From positions 1 through 64,000 of the forward strand of contig CANCER010000010.1 of the NCBI GenBank assembly GCA_947375135.1: DNA of 64,000 nt, in the 5' to 3' direction. Source of the stretch: Comamonadaceae bacterium (lineage in GTDB: Bacteria > Pseudomonadota > Gammaproteobacteria > Burkholderiales > Burkholderiaceae_C). The position numbers and the translations under genes are program-made. The notes beneath the pieces were generated by a model. The model did no database searches. It was given only the letters and a program-made list of their open reading frames with translations, and was not told where the DNA came from. Positions within the stretch are counted from its first letter, which is position 1, and each line of letters begins with the position of its first letter. This document shows, piece by piece, positions 6,810-12,526 of the stretch.

Positions 6810-7301
6810 ATGAGTATTCTAAAAAAGACAGCCTTGGCCGCGGCTTGTGTCGGCACCTTGTTGTTTGCAGGTGCTGCCTCTGCCGCCGGCATGGGTAGCC
6901 TGCAGATCAAAGGCACCGTGGCGGGCACTTGCGAGTTTCACACGCCAACCACTGCGTATGTCATGGACTTCGGCCCATTGGACACAAGCGCCACCTCGCC
7001 TGCGACTGCCGTCGCTGATTTGGCTTACCACTGCACGACCGGCACGCCTGCGGCACGTCTCTTTATCGACGGTGTTATCGGTGGCAACCCCAGCGGTAAC
7101 TCGGGTGAGACCCTCAACATGAACTCCGGCGCCAACCGCATTCCCGTGACGCTGACTTGGACCGTGCCGACAACTCCCGGTACGGGCTTTGCTACAGCGC
7201 CGCTGCATATGAATGTGAACGGTAGCATTTCTGTGGCGAACCTCAATGCAGCAGTAGCCGGCACCTACACGGCGACCTACCCCATGCTCATCCTGCCGTA
7301 A
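6810..7301 (+). CDS. Spore coat U / Csu-type major fimbrial subunit
   Basis: This 163-residue exported structural subunit probably forms the pilus fibre. It has a signal peptide (1-25, cleaved after AASA) and then a beta-rich spore-coat-U (SCPU) domain. That domain includes LQIKGTVAGTCEF near its start, a second Cys in YHCTTGTP, and the typical pilin ending GTYTATYPMLILP. The two cysteines probably form the disulphide of this fold. It is the first gene of a subunit-chaperone-usher-subunit operon, with the chaperone starting 7 bases after its stop. Position and abundance-type signal (strong RBS) suggest the major subunit. Confidence 0.85.
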   Translation: MSILKKTALAAACVGTLLFAGAASAAGMGSLQIKGTVAGTCEFHTPTTAYVMDFGPLDTSATSPATAVADLAYHCTTGTPAARLFIDGVIGGNPSGNSGETLNMNSGANRIPVTLTWTVPTTPGTGFATAPLHMNVNGSISVANLNAAVAGTYTATYPMLILP

Positions 7302-7308
7302 GTAGCAA

Positions 7309-8082
7309 ATGCAGTGCCAAAACATTCACTGGTTGAAGGCACTCGTCAAGGCGGCCCCTTTGGGGCTTGCCTTGATGTGGTGGTCTGTCATGCAACCGTT
7401 GCCTGCGCGGGCGGCGAGTTTTTCGGTCTATCCCACCAGAATGGAATTTGAAGCGGGCACCCGTGCGTCGGTTATTGGAATCAATAACAGGGACGAGCGC
7501 CCCATCCGTTTTCAAATGACCTTGGTTGAGTGGACACAAAACGCCAAGGGTGAAGATATCTATACACCAAGCAACGATCTGATTTACTTCCCCCGGCAGT
7601 TAACGGTAAAGCCCGGTGATCGGGCCATTGTTCGGCTTGGTCCCAAAAACATACCCACTGGCACCGAGAAAGCGTACCGCTTAAAGGTGGAGGAATTGGC
7701 TGAACCCATGCCGGAGAATCCGGGCTCCACCCTGGGCCTGACCGTTACCTTCGCAGTACCCGTTTTTGTGGGTAAGCCTGACGGGAAGCCGGCAGCGTCC
7801 ATCGCCGGGTTGGGAATGCAAAGCGGCAAGCTGGCTGCCACCGTACACAACACGGGCAATTCGCAATTCCGGATTAATTCCTTGGAGGTGACAGGTGCCA
7901 ATGGCTATACCCAGAACATGGGCGGCTGGTATTTGCTGTCTGGCGCAAGCCGGCAATACACCCTGGACATTCCGCCTGATGTGTGTCGCGCACAAAAGCG
8001 CCTCAGCCTGCACGTCAAAGTGGGCGAGGAGAGCTTCTCATCCGATTTGGACATAGACCCGTCCATGTGTGGCAGCACATGA
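7309..8082 (+). CDS. Periplasmic fimbrial chaperone (PapD-like, Csu/archaic type)
   Basis: This 257-residue periplasmic chaperone should cap subunits and deliver them to the usher. The signal peptide ends ARA-AS near residue 36. The PapD N-terminal domain follows, with FSVYPTRMEFEAG, then YFPRQLTVKPGDRAIVRLG and the conserved region AYRLKVEELAEP. The C-terminal Ig-like domain covers about residues 155-257. It lies between the first subunit and the usher, with 19 bases to the usher ATG that I prefer; a GTG start at 8069 would overlap it. Confidence 0.88.
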   Translation: MQCQNIHWLKALVKAAPLGLALMWWSVMQPLPARAASFSVYPTRMEFEAGTRASVIGINNRDERPIRFQMTLVEWTQNAKGEDIYTPSNDLIYFPRQLTVKPGDRAIVRLGPKNIPTGTEKAYRLKVEELAEPMPENPGSTLGLTVTFAVPVFVGKPDGKPAASIAGLGMQSGKLAATVHNTGNSQFRINSLEVTGANGYTQNMGGWYLLSGASRQYTLDIPPDVCRAQKRLSLHVKVGEESFSSDLDIDPSMCGST

Positions 8083-8101
8083 CATAGAAAGCACTCTTCC
8101 C

Positions 8102-10459
8102 ATGCAACGGTTCCATAAAAGCAAAAAAGTCGGACTTGCGTTTGCCATCGCCCTCTTGGTGGGTTCTGCCGTGGCAGTCGCGGCAGGTGAAGAAGGCATG
8201 TTTCTGGACATCAAGGTCAACCAGGTGCAGCGCGGGGAGTTTGCAACCTACCGGGCGGCCGATGGTGACATTTACATTCGCTTATCTGATTTTCCCCAAC
8301 TGGGCCTGAAACGTGACATCAGCCTGCCCCGTGTGCGCATTGAGGGCGAGAGCGGCAGCTTCGTCTCCTTGCGTGACATGGGCGCTATCCGCATGGAACT
8401 GGACATCGACAAGATGGCACTGGCGCTTGAGTTGCCACCGGAGGTGTTTGACACAACCGCACTTGACTTGGGCAACCGGGCAACCCGTGATTCACTCACC
8501 GCTGCGCAGAGCAGTGGGTTCTTGAACTACCGGCTGGCCGACACCGCCTATGGTTCAGCCGACCCCTCGCGCACCCTTGCCACCGAAATCGGGCTGCGCT
8601 ATGGCCGCGTGCTGTTGCTCAACCAAAGCCAGTTTCGCGAGAACGGTGACACCTCGCGCTATCTCACGCAGTTGGTGTACGACAGGCCGGAGGACCAGCA
8701 GCGCTTGGTTGCTGGTGACTTTGTCGGCACTTCCGGCGAGTTGGGATCTGCCTTGAACATGGGGGGCTTGAACTTTTCCAAGGTCTACAGCATGACCCCC
8801 GAACTCATCCCCCAGCCCCTGGCCGGGTTTGCCGGGGTTGCCAACTCGCCCTCGCAGGTGGAGGTGCGCATGGGCGGCGTGCCGGTCGCCTACTCCCAAG
8901 TGGCCACCGGGCCTTTTCAATTGCAAAACCTGCGCCAATATGGTGGCGCAGGTGATGTGCAGGTCATCGTGCGCGATGCATTGGGGCGCGAGCAGTTGTA
9001 CACCTTCCCCTTCTACTTCTCAGACCAGTCCCTGCGCGAAGGCTTGCAGGAATACAGCTATTCACTGGGGAAAATTCGCACCAACCCGGGCCTACCCAGT
9101 GAGGACTATGGCAAGACCGCGTTCTCTGCATTTCACCGTTTTGGCTACAGCAATGCCCTGACGCTGGGCGCGCGCGCCGAGGCAGCCGAGAATCTGACCA
9201 ATGTGGGTCTGAGTGCCATCTGGCGCAGCGACCAGTGGGGCGTACTGTCCGGTGCGGCGTCGGGCAGCGACTACGCAGGGCAGGTTGGCGATGCGGAAAT
9301 GCTGGCATACAACTTCCAGCGGTCCAACTTCGGACTGGGCACCGTTGCCCGCAGTTACAGCGCCCACTACGCGCCCCTGGAAACGCTGACCACCCCCTTC
9401 AAACGCAGTGGCGAATACGGCGCCAGCCTGTCCTGGCGCCTGGGTGTGAGCCAGAGCCTGAGTTTCGATCACACCCTGAGACAGACGCGCGACCTGGGTG
9501 ACACGCGCACAAGCAGCCTCAACTATTTCCAGAACCTGGGACGCAACAGCGTGCTGTACGCCACCTTGCAGCGCACGGATGACAACACTGCTTCGCAGCC
9601 CAACACCTCGCTGTTTGTCGGCTGGCTCTATCGCTTCGACAACAAGTACACCGCCTCCGCAAGCGCAAGCCAGGACGAGAAGGGGCACCAGACTTTGTTC
9701 ACGCAAGTGGGGCGTGACATACCTACCGGTGAAGGACTGGGATACCGCGTGGGTTGGAGCGGCACCCAGCCCGAGAACTCAGACCGCTTCAATGGCTATG
9801 CGCAATGGAATCTGCCTGCTGCCAGCGTGTCGGTGGACGCAAACACCTATCCGTCCCAGGCCGGCAGTGGGGATTACCGCGAGTTGGCCGTCGCGGGCTC
9901 CATTGCGTTTGCCGGCAGCGCCTGGGGCTTTTCGCGGCAAATCAATGACAGCTTCGCCATCGTCCGGATGGGTACGCCCGTGTCCGGGGTACCGGTCATG
10001 GCCAACAGCCAGCAAATTGGAGTCAGCAATACCAGCGGGCAAGTCATCAGCCCCAGCGTTGGGTCTTTCTACGAGTCGCGCATTTCCATTGACGACAAAA
10101 ATGTCCCGTTGAACTATGTGATGGGACGGGACTTCTTCACTGTCAAGCCCGCCTACCGCAGTGGTGTGGACGTGAACTTCGGGCTGCGGCGTATGCGGGG
10201 GCTTGATGGTGTGGTCCGTGTGCGCGAGGGCGAGGACACGCCCACGGCGGATAACCAACTCCTGACCCTGACCAGGGAGGGCGTGCTTGAACAGGAAATT
10301 CAGATCGGTCGGGGCGGTCATTTTTACATTGAAAACATCGCTCCCGGCGCGTACCGCGGCGAGATCAAGACGGCAAAACAAACCTGCCATTTTGTGATGC
10401 AGGTGCCGGACAGCGGGGAAGTCGTTTTCGCTTTGCCAGGAGACCTCATCTGTGAATAA
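8102..10459 (+). CDS. Fimbrial outer-membrane usher protein
   Basis: This 785-residue usher forms the outer-membrane pore through which subunits are polymerised. A signal peptide covers residues 1-27 (ending AVAA). An N-terminal periplasmic domain, a large beta-barrel (about 110-640, with the plug region near GGVPVAYSQVATGPF) and C-terminal beta domains follow. A cysteine near the end (KTAKQTCHFVMQV) and the final DLICE are typical of ushers. The ATG at 8102 is chosen because the signal peptide begins there; a GTG at 8069 in the same frame would add eleven unlikely residues. The stop overlaps the next subunit by 8 bases. Confidence 0.9.
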   Translation: MQRFHKSKKVGLAFAIALLVGSAVAVAAGEEGMFLDIKVNQVQRGEFATYRAADGDIYIRLSDFPQLGLKRDISLPRVRIEGESGSFVSLRDMGAIRMELDIDKMALALELPPEVFDTTALDLGNRATRDSLTAAQSSGFLNYRLADTAYGSADPSRTLATEIGLRYGRVLLLNQSQFRENGDTSRYLTQLVYDRPEDQQRLVAGDFVGTSGELGSALNMGGLNFSKVYSMTPELIPQPLAGFAGVANSPSQVEVRMGGVPVAYSQVATGPFQLQNLRQYGGAGDVQVIVRDALGREQLYTFPFYFSDQSLREGLQEYSYSLGKIRTNPGLPSEDYGKTAFSAFHRFGYSNALTLGARAEAAENLTNVGLSAIWRSDQWGVLSGAASGSDYAGQVGDAEMLAYNFQRSNFGLGTVARSYSAHYAPLETLTTPFKRSGEYGASLSWRLGVSQSLSFDHTLRQTRDLGDTRTSSLNYFQNLGRNSVLYATLQRTDDNTASQPNTSLFVGWLYRFDNKYTASASASQDEKGHQTLFTQVGRDIPTGEGLGYRVGWSGTQPENSDRFNGYAQWNLPAASVSVDANTYPSQAGSGDYRELAVAGSIAFAGSAWGFSRQINDSFAIVRMGTPVSGVPVMANSQQIGVSNTSGQVISPSVGSFYESRISIDDKNVPLNYVMGRDFFTVKPAYRSGVDVNFGLRRMRGLDGVVRVREGEDTPTADNQLLTLTREGVLEQEIQIGRGGHFYIENIAPGAYRGEIKTAKQTCHFVMQVPDSGEVVFALPGDLICE

Positions 10460-10934
10460 ACCAAGCACAAACCTGCATGCACTGCGCGCCTGTTGGGTTG
10501 CACTGGCATGCGTCTCGGGAAGCAGTTGCCTGCACGCGGGGATAGCGTGCGATGTAGACAGTGCCGCGCTGACCTTTGGCCTGTATGACCCGTCCAGCAC
10601 CAGCCCGACCGACGGCGTGGGCACTGTCGATTTGAAGTGCACCAGCCTGGCGACCGCCACACCCAACGGCGCCAATGTGGCACTCAGCATCAGCCCTGCC
10701 AGCAACCGCAAGATGCTCAGCAACGGGTACGCGCTGAACTATGGCATTTACAGCAACGCTGCACGCTCCGCGAACTGGGGGGACGGCTCGGCCGCGCCCA
10801 TGCTGAGTACGGGCGCCATGCAAGCCAATGAGAGCAAGTCCTTGCGCTTCACGCTGTACGGCCGCATACCGCCATTGCAGAACATCGCTGCGGGGACCTA
10901 CTCGGACGCCCTGCTGATCACCATCACACCTTGA
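10452..10934 (+). CDS. Spore coat U-like minor fimbrial subunit
   Basis: This 160-residue exported protein starts with GTG and overlaps the usher end, implying translational coupling. The signal peptide is about residues 1-29. The mature part has an SCPU fold signature: CDVDSAALTFGLYDP, then TVDLKCTS, LNYGIYSNAARS and the pilin ending GTYSDALLITITP. LNYGIY and WGDG are classical SCPU motifs (LNYNLY...WGDG). The single-domain size and position after the usher suggest a tip or minor subunit. Confidence 0.85.
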   Translation: MNKPSTNLHALRACWVALACVSGSSCLHAGIACDVDSAALTFGLYDPSSTSPTDGVGTVDLKCTSLATATPNGANVALSISPASNRKMLSNGYALNYGIYSNAARSANWGDGSAAPMLSTGAMQANESKSLRFTLYGRIPPLQNIAAGTYSDALLITITP

Positions 10935-10942
10935 AGCCCACC

Positions 10943-11842
10943 ATGACGACCCCCCTCAAATCCACAGACTTGCCCTTGCCTCTGGGCGAGTTTCTGAGCT
11001 CTGCAGGCCTGGTGCCACCGGATCAGGTGCGGTATGCGCTGGACTTGCAGCGCACGACGGGCGAAAGACTGGGCGAAGTTCTGGTGCGGCAAGCGGCCAT
11101 CGATCCCAAGGACATCGCCGCCGTTGTGGAAGTGCAGCAGCAGGTTCGCGAACACCTGAGCCGCGAAAAGGGCCAACCCACCCATGCCCTGCCTGACTGT
11201 TTGAGCGTAGGTGAATTGCTGGTGGCACGGGGTGATGTCACCCGTGCGGTGCTGACTCAAGCCCTGCAGAACAAGCCCAAGGATGCGGATCTGGGTGAGG
11301 TACTGATAAAAATGGGGGCCGTAAAACCAGAGACGCTGTCCCATGTGGTGCCACTGCAAAAGCGTTTGCTCAGCGCCGTGCTGTGTGCCGGTTTGGGCTT
11401 TGCATTTGCGTTCGCGACGCAAACGGCCAGGGCCGCAGGCAGTGGCTCATCGCGCTTGCTGATCACAGCCACCGTACCCAGAGGCGTTCAGCTCACCATC
11501 AAAAGCCACCCCGCCGGATTTACCGTGAGCGAGCAGGACATTGCGCGCGGCTACGTCGACGTGGCGCAGGCCAGCGTGTTTGACATCAAGACCAATAGCG
11601 CCGAGGGCGTCGCCCTGGAATTCCATGGCGTGCACAACGGTGGCGTGATTCAGAGCGTGCAAATCGTCGGCGGAGCCAGTGGCTTCCAGATGCCGGCGTC
11701 GGGTGGCGTCATGCTGATCCAGGGTGGCTGGCGCCCTACGGAAGTTCGCAGTTTCAACCTCCGCTACCGCTTGTACTTGGGCCCCAGCGCACAGCCCGGC
11801 GCGCACGACTGGCCTTATTCGATGACCGTCACTGCGCTGTGA
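10943..11842 (+). CDS. Fusion protein: tandem MshEN-like repeats, internal signal/TM segment and fimbrial-type C-terminal domain
   Basis: The protein has 299 residues from the ATG (the track frame also allows TTG at 10931, overlapping the previous stop). Residues 13-36 and 42-65 are two 24-residue repeats (PLGEFLSSAGLVPPDQVRYA... and RLGEVLVRQAAIDPKDIAAV...) separated by exactly five residues. This is the architecture known for the MshEN domain, which binds cyclic di-GMP in MshE-type ATPases. A second, weaker pair lies at 88-111 and 116-139. A hydrophobic stretch at 142-159 ends in ARA-AG, looking like an internal signal peptide or anchor. Residues 165-299 form a beta-rich domain ending YSMTVTAL, as in fimbrial proteins. 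No ATPase domain is present. Function is unknown; coupling of cyclic di-GMP to the pilus is an inference. Confidence 0.75.
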   Translation: MTTPLKSTDLPLPLGEFLSSAGLVPPDQVRYALDLQRTTGERLGEVLVRQAAIDPKDIAAVVEVQQQVREHLSREKGQPTHALPDCLSVGELLVARGDVTRAVLTQALQNKPKDADLGEVLIKMGAVKPETLSHVVPLQKRLLSAVLCAGLGFAFAFATQTARAAGSGSSRLLITATVPRGVQLTIKSHPAGFTVSEQDIARGYVDVAQASVFDIKTNSAEGVALEFHGVHNGGVIQSVQIVGGASGFQMPASGGVMLIQGGWRPTEVRSFNLRYRLYLGPSAQPGAHDWPYSMTVTAL

Positions 11843-11869: not shown

Positions 11870-12526
11870 ATGAACACTTGGCCGCTGATACTGATCGTGG
11901 ACGACTCCAGCGCCGACGCGCTGGCTCTGTCCGGCATGTTGAGTCTGGAGTACCGTATCCAACGCGCGCACAGCGGCGCTGACGCGCTGGACAGGGTGCA
12001 GCGAAGCCCGACGCCGGACTTGGTGTTGCTGGACCTCGTGATGCCGGGCCTGGACGGTTTTGAGGTGTGCAAACGCATGAAGCAATCCGCCGTCACACGC
12101 GATGTTCCAGTGGTCTTCATCACTGCCGTACACGATGCCGCACAGGAAGCACGCGCCCTGGAACTGCAGGCCGCAGACTACATCACCAAACCCTATTCGG
12201 TAGAGGTGGCGCGGGCCCGCATTCGCAAGGCCTTGTGGTCCAAGTCCAAGGCTGCTTTGCAATTGCCCAACGGCCACGCCAAGGGCGGCCAGTCGCAGGA
12301 AGAAATCCAGACGACCCCGGATTCTTTACCCCGCCTGGGCAAACGCGAAATGCAAGTGATGGCACTCATTGCCGAGGGCCTGACCTCTGCCGAAATTGCC
12401 GAGCGACTCTTTATCGCCAAGGGCACGGTCGAGGTGCACCGCGAAAACATCATGCGCAAGCTGGGCGTGCGCAACATCGCCGGGCTGGTGAAGTGCGCCG
12501 TGCGCAACGGCTTGCTGGCGCCCTGA
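11870..12526 (+). CDS. Response regulator with receiver and LuxR-type DNA-binding domain
   Basis: This 218-residue two-component regulator has a receiver domain at 1-125 with Asp11-Asp12, the phosphoacceptor Asp55 (LVLLDLVMPG), Thr85 and Lys107 (ITKPYS). A linker (about 125-150) leads to a LuxR/GerE helix-turn-helix (about 152-215: LGKREMQVMALIAEG, SAEIAERLFIAKGTVEVHRE). It starts 27 bases after the fimbrial fusion gene and has no partner kinase beside it. By position it probably controls the fimbrial operon, possibly through the AT-rich control region, but the sequence does not prove this. Confidence 0.88.
   Translation: MNTWPLILIVDDSSADALALSGMLSLEYRIQRAHSGADALDRVQRSPTPDLVLLDLVMPGLDGFEVCKRMKQSAVTRDVPVVFITAVHDAAQEARALELQAADYITKPYSVEVARARIRKALWSKSKAALQLPNGHAKGGQSQEEIQTTPDSLPRLGKREMQVMALIAEGLTSAEIAERLFIAKGTVEVHRENIMRKLGVRNIAGLVKCAVRNGLLAP

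Follow-up and report, generated by a model that had tools for sequence, protein, structure and literature searches.

A c-di-GMP-type motif array fused to a predicted pilin-like domain in a chaperone–usher operon of a Comamonadaceae bacterium

The window analysed here, a stretch of 64,000 nucleotides from a Comamonadaceae bacterium (assembly GCA_947375135.1, contig CANCER010000010.1, positions 1 to 64,000 of the forward strand), encodes a protein in which tandem motifs for the second messenger cyclic di-GMP (c-di-GMP) are joined, through a hydrophobic helix, to a pilin-like β domain. This architecture, its conservation among relatives and its linkage to a fimbrial operon can be read directly from the sequences; the fold of the β domain and the membrane topology are predicted. 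Both halves are of known kinds, and no account of their combination or of the shared helix was found in the literature examined. We consider it about an even chance that the protein is a pilus-subunit precursor tethered to the inner membrane and equipped with its own c-di-GMP receptor, the release of the subunit or its presentation to the chaperone–usher machine being gated by c-di-GMP.

The fusion of the two halves is real, judging from the reading frame and its homologues. The open reading frame (ORF) is uninterrupted from the ATG at 10943 to the stop at 11842, and the genome search returned the same frame without stops. A preliminary description of the window, made from its letters, had proposed the fusion and considered a frameshift or assembly error welding two ordinary genes as the alternative. 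Nothing in the window speaks for such an error, and the one point in its favour is a relative (L015) whose gene is split over frames. Against it, 38 of the 41 proteins found at E ≤ 0.01 (own protein included) span at least 91% of the query, at identities down to about 30%, fused loci occur in other genomes, and the junction is free of insertions in 151 proteins. We count this explanation as refuted and leave it practically no probability.

Two working sets were compared: 151 fused-set proteins (P0001–P0040 and P0161–P0271, the window protein included), and 120 relatives (β-only) in which the same β domain follows an N-terminal signal peptide of ordinary appearance. The latter are the best 120 of 429 proteins at E ≤ 1e-5. 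The fused profile found 335 proteins at E ≤ 1e-20, and among the best 120 of these, as listed, the source names are mostly “hypothetical protein” where given.

Motifs of the c-di-GMP type in the N-terminal half

A motif scan resolves the N-terminal half into four 24-residue c-di-GMP motifs. The repeats at residues 13–36 and 42–65 are exactly 24 residues long with a five-residue spacer, as had been noticed in the preliminary description, and the MshEN consensus, as given in excerpts of PMC5013675, consists of two 24-residue motifs and a five-residue spacer. The NCBIfam model NF053729 (c-di-GMP_motif) matches the protein in two stretches with 84.5 bits (cut-off 38), and 29 of the 30 members of A1, window protein included, are matched at E ≤ 0.01. 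Within the first pair, L2, G3 and Q24 are present in both motifs, Val/Ile stand at position 17 and Leu/Val at position 21, and R1 is replaced by Pro in motif I. The second, weaker pair is present as described (residues 88–111 and 116–139) but departs from the regular pattern, with a spacer one residue short and Lys in place of the terminal Gln of its first motif. In the relative P0028 the second pair is intact. The profile by which an MshEN domain was expected to be recognised, PF05157, did not bear out the assignment: no match was obtained in the window protein at E ≤ 10, in any of the 30 A1 members at E ≤ 1, or at this locus in the genome search, where four long ORFs elsewhere and five of 14 control genomes were positive. 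The lack of an MshEN profile match, named beforehand as a refutation, thus holds for PF05157, and the tandem-motif model NF053729 alone is positive, clearly so.

The motifs are well preserved in the family. Among the 27 close members (window included), the motif-end Gln is found in 27/27 for three of the four motifs and Gly3 in 25–27/27 for all four. At least three motifs occur in 150 of the 151 fused-set proteins, all but the 176-residue piece P0027, while 115 of the 120 β-only proteins have none and five have one; this contrast is partly by construction, as the sets come from separate searches with length limits. Conservation is higher at the ligand positions L2, G3, L17, L21 and Q24 than in the rest of the motif, with mean values of 0.89 vs. 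0.59 over all fused proteins and of 0.85 vs. 0.72 in close members (motif position 1 omitted from both sides).

The Pro at the first position had raised doubt about binding in the preliminary description. At the motif start aligned with residue 13, Leu is commonest (88/151 fused proteins) and Pro is found in 19/151. According to the excerpts of PMC5013675, changes of Arg9, Asp12 and Gln32 in Vibrio cholerae MshE alter the affinity at most fivefold, whereas ligand effects were abolished by changes of G11 and G40; the conserved motif Gly residues of the window protein are 15 and 44. In those of PMC11731258, one domain of Thermus PilF has Lys and Leu at motif position 1 and one motif shortened by a residue, and its affinity is 6 nM; another PilF domain, in which Pro starts one of three motifs, is about MshEN-like in affinity. 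Going by these papers, a Pro at the first motif position need not abolish binding, so that the doubt persists in weaker form than first thought. The ligand itself is probably made in the host, because 14 GGDEF matches were found in its genome.

DUF4388 (PF14332) was not adopted as the family of the protein; it scores 20.1 bits against a cut-off of 25 and covers the last repeats plus the helix. It does match 28 of the 30 A1 members at E ≤ 1 and is the precomputed label on many fused relatives, among which FumaraseC_C and DUF2949 are further weak Pfam labels. NF053729 exceeds its cut-off at one other place in the genome only (L058, G000:C17:26222-26377), within a 292-residue ORF which, by eye, we take to resemble an EpsG-type tyrosine kinase and which adjoins a chain-length-determinant-like ORF.

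Junction helix and pilin-like domain

The hydrophobic segment ending in ARA-AG that had been recognised inside the protein is present, spanning about residues 142–158 ahead of ARA-AG. Residues 140–299 consist of this segment and the β domain, with no type II secretion or type IV pilus ATPase domain found there, in agreement with a fusion that lacks the ATPase. Across the fused set the last motif passes into the helix in fixed register: there is no insertion at 117–158 and no gap at 125–150, insertions accumulate only after residue 158, and gaps at 151–158 in 14/151 proteins correspond to a slightly shorter helix (P0027 is gapped before 125). Gln139, with which the last motif closes, is invariant (151/151), as is Leu142. 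The small-residue spacing A145xxxA149 is widely kept, with Ala in 138/151 and 145/151, and Lys-Arg at 140–141, just before the helix, match the expectation for an N-in orientation. In the predicted model, helix H129–156 is continuous from the ligand-contact positions into the membrane segment, at a confidence below 50 from residue 152.

By pairwise identity, the helix is about twice as conserved among closer relatives as the signal peptides of β-only proteins. At β-domain identities of 0.5–0.7, mean identity of the hydrophobic segment is 0.66 in fused proteins vs. 0.27 in β-only signal peptides (149 and 120 proteins). The alignment-free best-12-mer method gave 0.81 vs. 0.42 in the same range (141 fused and 113 β-only proteins usable, 2500 random pairs each). 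At β identities of 0.3–0.4 the excess is small, i.e. 0.35 vs. 0.24, or 0.50 vs. 0.41 for the best 12-mer. The pairs in all these comparisons lack independence, as few clades dominate each set.

The case for a signal-peptidase-like site behind the helix is one of column and offset counts. Counted from the invariant Gln, the pattern [AVSTIL]x[AGS] stands at offset 25 in 70% of the 151 proteins, compared to 7–16% at offsets 21–24, and strict AxA at offset 25 in 42%. The loose pattern also stands within the helix (offset 15, 71%; offset 19, 58%) and reaches 22–45% at offsets 27–32. Strict AxA anywhere in the region occurs in 113/142 fused and 97/116 β-only proteins (13 without the anchor motif excluded).

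The same region bears on the idea that an internal ATG, codon 124 (window position 11312), yields a second, ordinary subunit with a signal peptide beside the long form. Met124 is found in 25 of the 27 close members and GAGGT lies upstream. Still, Met is present in only 27/151 fused proteins, namely the 25 close members and the shorter P0027 and P0030, and the others mostly have Ala or Ser, so that internal initiation would not be a general mechanism. We regard it as very unlikely.

The description of the C-terminal half as a fimbrial-type β domain holds at the level of a predicted pilin-like fold. The AlphaFold2 model of residues 163–299 has a mean predicted local distance difference test (pLDDT) score of 90.9, and its closest solved folds are CanA and chaperone–usher subunits, at modest Z. 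A known Pfam pilin was ruled out as its identity: pilin and spore-coat-U (SCPU) models gave no Pfam match to the β half at E ≤ 10, and none in eight β-only members. The donor-strand-like pattern of the fused proteins extends to 120/120 β-only proteins when Val is also permitted at the small position, and the operon pilin has LQIKGTV behind its signal peptide. With a donor strand, a tip role would be unlikely and a role as base or terminator subunit possible. The capping of the pilus suggested in the preliminary description is likewise possible.

Proposed gating and its alternatives

In a gated precursor, the MshEN-type repeats would lie in the cytoplasm, which they must face because c-di-GMP is met there. 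The hydrophobic helix, as a Sec signal segment, would cross the inner membrane N-in/C-out, and cytoplasmic repeats combined with an N-in helix would place the pilin-like domain in the periplasm. As the helix of the last motif is predicted to run straight into the membrane helix, ligand binding could act mechanically on the latter and alter its insertion, its tilt or the access of signal peptidase. Signal peptidase would probably be able to cut after ARA and thereby free the pilin N-terminus AGSGSSR-LLITATV for donor-strand exchange, and a subunit that stays tethered would be unable to exit via the usher. By gating cleavage, release or chaperone presentation, c-di-GMP may thus control the supply of a subunit, perhaps a base or terminator subunit. 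From binding onward we infer every step, i.e. ligand binding, cleavage, gating and the direction of control. Of the two readings offered in the preliminary description, a sensor inside the cell with its output outside and a cleaved two-part product, both continue to be viable. A stricter version, a c-di-GMP-gated signal peptide in which cytoplasmic c-di-GMP directly decides insertion, cutting and periplasmic release of the subunit, is held tentatively and with some doubt; if true, it would represent post-translational second-messenger control of chaperone–usher pili at subunit release.

The main rival, which we judge rather unlikely, is an uncleaved single-pass inside-out sensor in which c-di-GMP shifts a periplasmic pilin-like domain that retains or obstructs the chaperone, a subunit or the usher; its working would be LapD-like, with unrelated domains. 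Alternatively, the repeats may merely dock or localise the precursor, with constitutive export and no c-di-GMP regulation of the subunit, which appears unlikely. A number of observations weigh against gated release. The membrane helix is better conserved than β-only signal peptides, and its fixed register with the last motif and the A145xxxA149 spacing would suit an uncleaved sensor. The degraded second pair of the window protein, a relative (L020) that apparently lost its repeats yet keeps the exported domain, and β-only forms that adjoin related ushers would suit mere docking. Moreover, as the Gln32 effect in MshE is at most fivefold in the excerpts of PMC5013675, the conserved Gln alone is no proof of tight binding. 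Conversely, an uncleaved sensor is at odds with the peak of the signal-peptidase-like site at offset 25, with a donor-strand motif right after it as in the operon pilin, and with the ordinary-looking signal peptides of the β-only relatives. Docking is at odds with the excess conservation of L2, G3, L17, L21 and Q24 over other motif positions.

Comparison with known systems places the protein between several of them. It shares with the MshEN_N receptors (V. cholerae MshE, Thermus PilF GSPII) the 24-residue tandem with a five-residue spacer, NF053729, and the LG and Q positions; it differs by the absence of an ATPase and of a PF05157 match, by the entry of the last motif helix into a membrane or signal helix, and by a presumably exported pilin-like domain as output. 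With chaperone–usher subunits (FimA, FimG, FimI, PapH and the spore-coat-U type) it has in common the predicted pilin-like sandwich, a gene beside chaperone and usher, and a donor-strand-like N-terminus after a signal-peptidase-like site, whereas it lacks a Pfam pilin or SCPU match, carries a putative N-terminal cytoplasmic receptor and shows modest fold similarity. LapD connects a cytoplasmic c-di-GMP receptor through a membrane helix to a periplasmic output for surface adhesion, and also has HAMP and, in the periplasm, a PAS-like domain. No EAL-type, HAMP or periplasmic PAS-like family was among the Pfam matches of the window protein; LapD uses an EAL-type domain, and the likeness is a functional analogy only, drawn without sequence comparison. 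LapD, an inside-out c-di-GMP receptor, is named in PMC10519070. The NCBIfam model of NfrB, a c-di-GMP-activated glycosyltransferase, gives 33.1 bits with the window protein, far below its cut-off of 1170, the match falling on the C-terminal positions 654–710 of its 723.

Control of chaperone–usher pili by c-di-GMP is known mainly at the transcriptional level, e.g. by MrkH for type 3 fimbriae. The fused family, widespread with 335 proteins at E ≤ 1e-20, would physically tie the second messenger to a pilus subunit; through this little-noticed family the cell interior may govern how much of a pilus component is supplied beyond the inner membrane. This would widen the range of outputs of MshEN-type domains and suggests that a signal sequence might be under ligand control; the fused and β-only forms that adjoin related ushers offer a simple genetic handle. 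In titles and abstract beginnings of the literature on MshEN or c-di-GMP with chaperone–usher systems the fusion is not described, albeit the supplementary tables of PMC5013675, which are said to give MshEN architectures, may hold it. The excerpts of that paper list receiver, HD-GYP, CheA and others as MshEN fusion partners, and the terms usher, fimbri-, transmembrane, signal peptide and periplasm are all absent from its main text.

Operon context and distribution

The fusion gene is the fifth of a fimbrial-type run and is followed by a response regulator gene (Table 1), which directly follows the fusion gene at loci L002 and L003 too. The nearest named locus is that of a Burkholderiales metagenome-assembled genome (MAG; L002), with 87% identity over residues 15–299. 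By eye, the spore-coat-U-type subunit encoded at 10452–10934 has no donor-strand motif after its signal peptide, as expected for a tip subunit.

Table 1 Coordinates and supporting evidence for the fused protein, its parts and the neighbouring genes in the window
Feature	Position	Strand	Basis
MshEN-type repeats + membrane/signal segment + pilin-like domain, 299 residues	10943..11842	+	Open ORF, full-length homologues
First c-di-GMP motif pair, residues 13–65	10979..11137	+	NF053729, 53.3 bits (genome search); 24+5+24
Second motif pair, residues 88–139	11204..11359	+	NF053729, 37.3 bits (genome search), just under cut-off; motif scan
Hydrophobic helix + signal-peptidase-like c-region, residues 142–164, ends ARA	11366..11434	+	Register, offset, conservation
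Donor-strand-like motif LLITATV, residues 172–178	11456..11476	+	Pattern in 145/151 fused proteins
Pilin-like β domain, residues 182–299 (predicted)	11486..11839	+	AlphaFold2 model, fold matches
Fimbrial-type pilin	6810..7301	+	PF00419, 17.1 bits, under cut-off 25.6
Periplasmic pilus chaperone	7309..8082	+	PF00345, 40.5 bits
Outer-membrane usher	8069..10459	+	PF00577, 106.8 bits
Spore-coat-U-type subunit	10452..10934	+	PF05229, 83.6 bits
Response regulator (receiver + LuxR-type), directly downstream	11870..12526	+	PF00072, PF00196

In the sequence stretches examined, an usher and/or a chaperone gene accompanies 11 of the 13 distinct fused loci, window included. Locus L004, near a contig end, has the chaperone only, and L009 and L079 have neither nearby, with an usher elsewhere in both genomes. 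An usher was found at 13 of 25 β-only loci, and eight of the other 12 are stretches of about 3–3.5 kb; many β-only genes adjoin related ushers.

The distribution is patchy, since among 399 genomes of the order the β domain occurs at E ≤ 1e-6 in nine, of which four (window's own included) have the fused form. In 299 genomes from the window's family, a full-length match was found in the own genome only, among the matches listed. At L020 (Polaromonas glacialis, 9067-9690), the β domain groups inside the fused sequences with only the last-helix region ahead of it; the repeats were apparently lost and the internal segment turned into an ordinary signal peptide. A single origin of the fusion was not borne out: the tree of a sample of 79 β domains (125 columns; L001, L015, L025, L026 and L027 excluded) needs six changes of the fused label, two of them forced by starred branches.

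In the MAG locus L015:2676-3910 the fusion gene is broken over three frames, by sequencing error or by decay, and lies between a spore-coat-U-type gene and a chaperone. Four Polaromonas loci (L012:2585-4030, L013:8872-10495, L014:701-2269 and L016:8938-10571) carry two tandem β-only genes, convergent with an usher gene.
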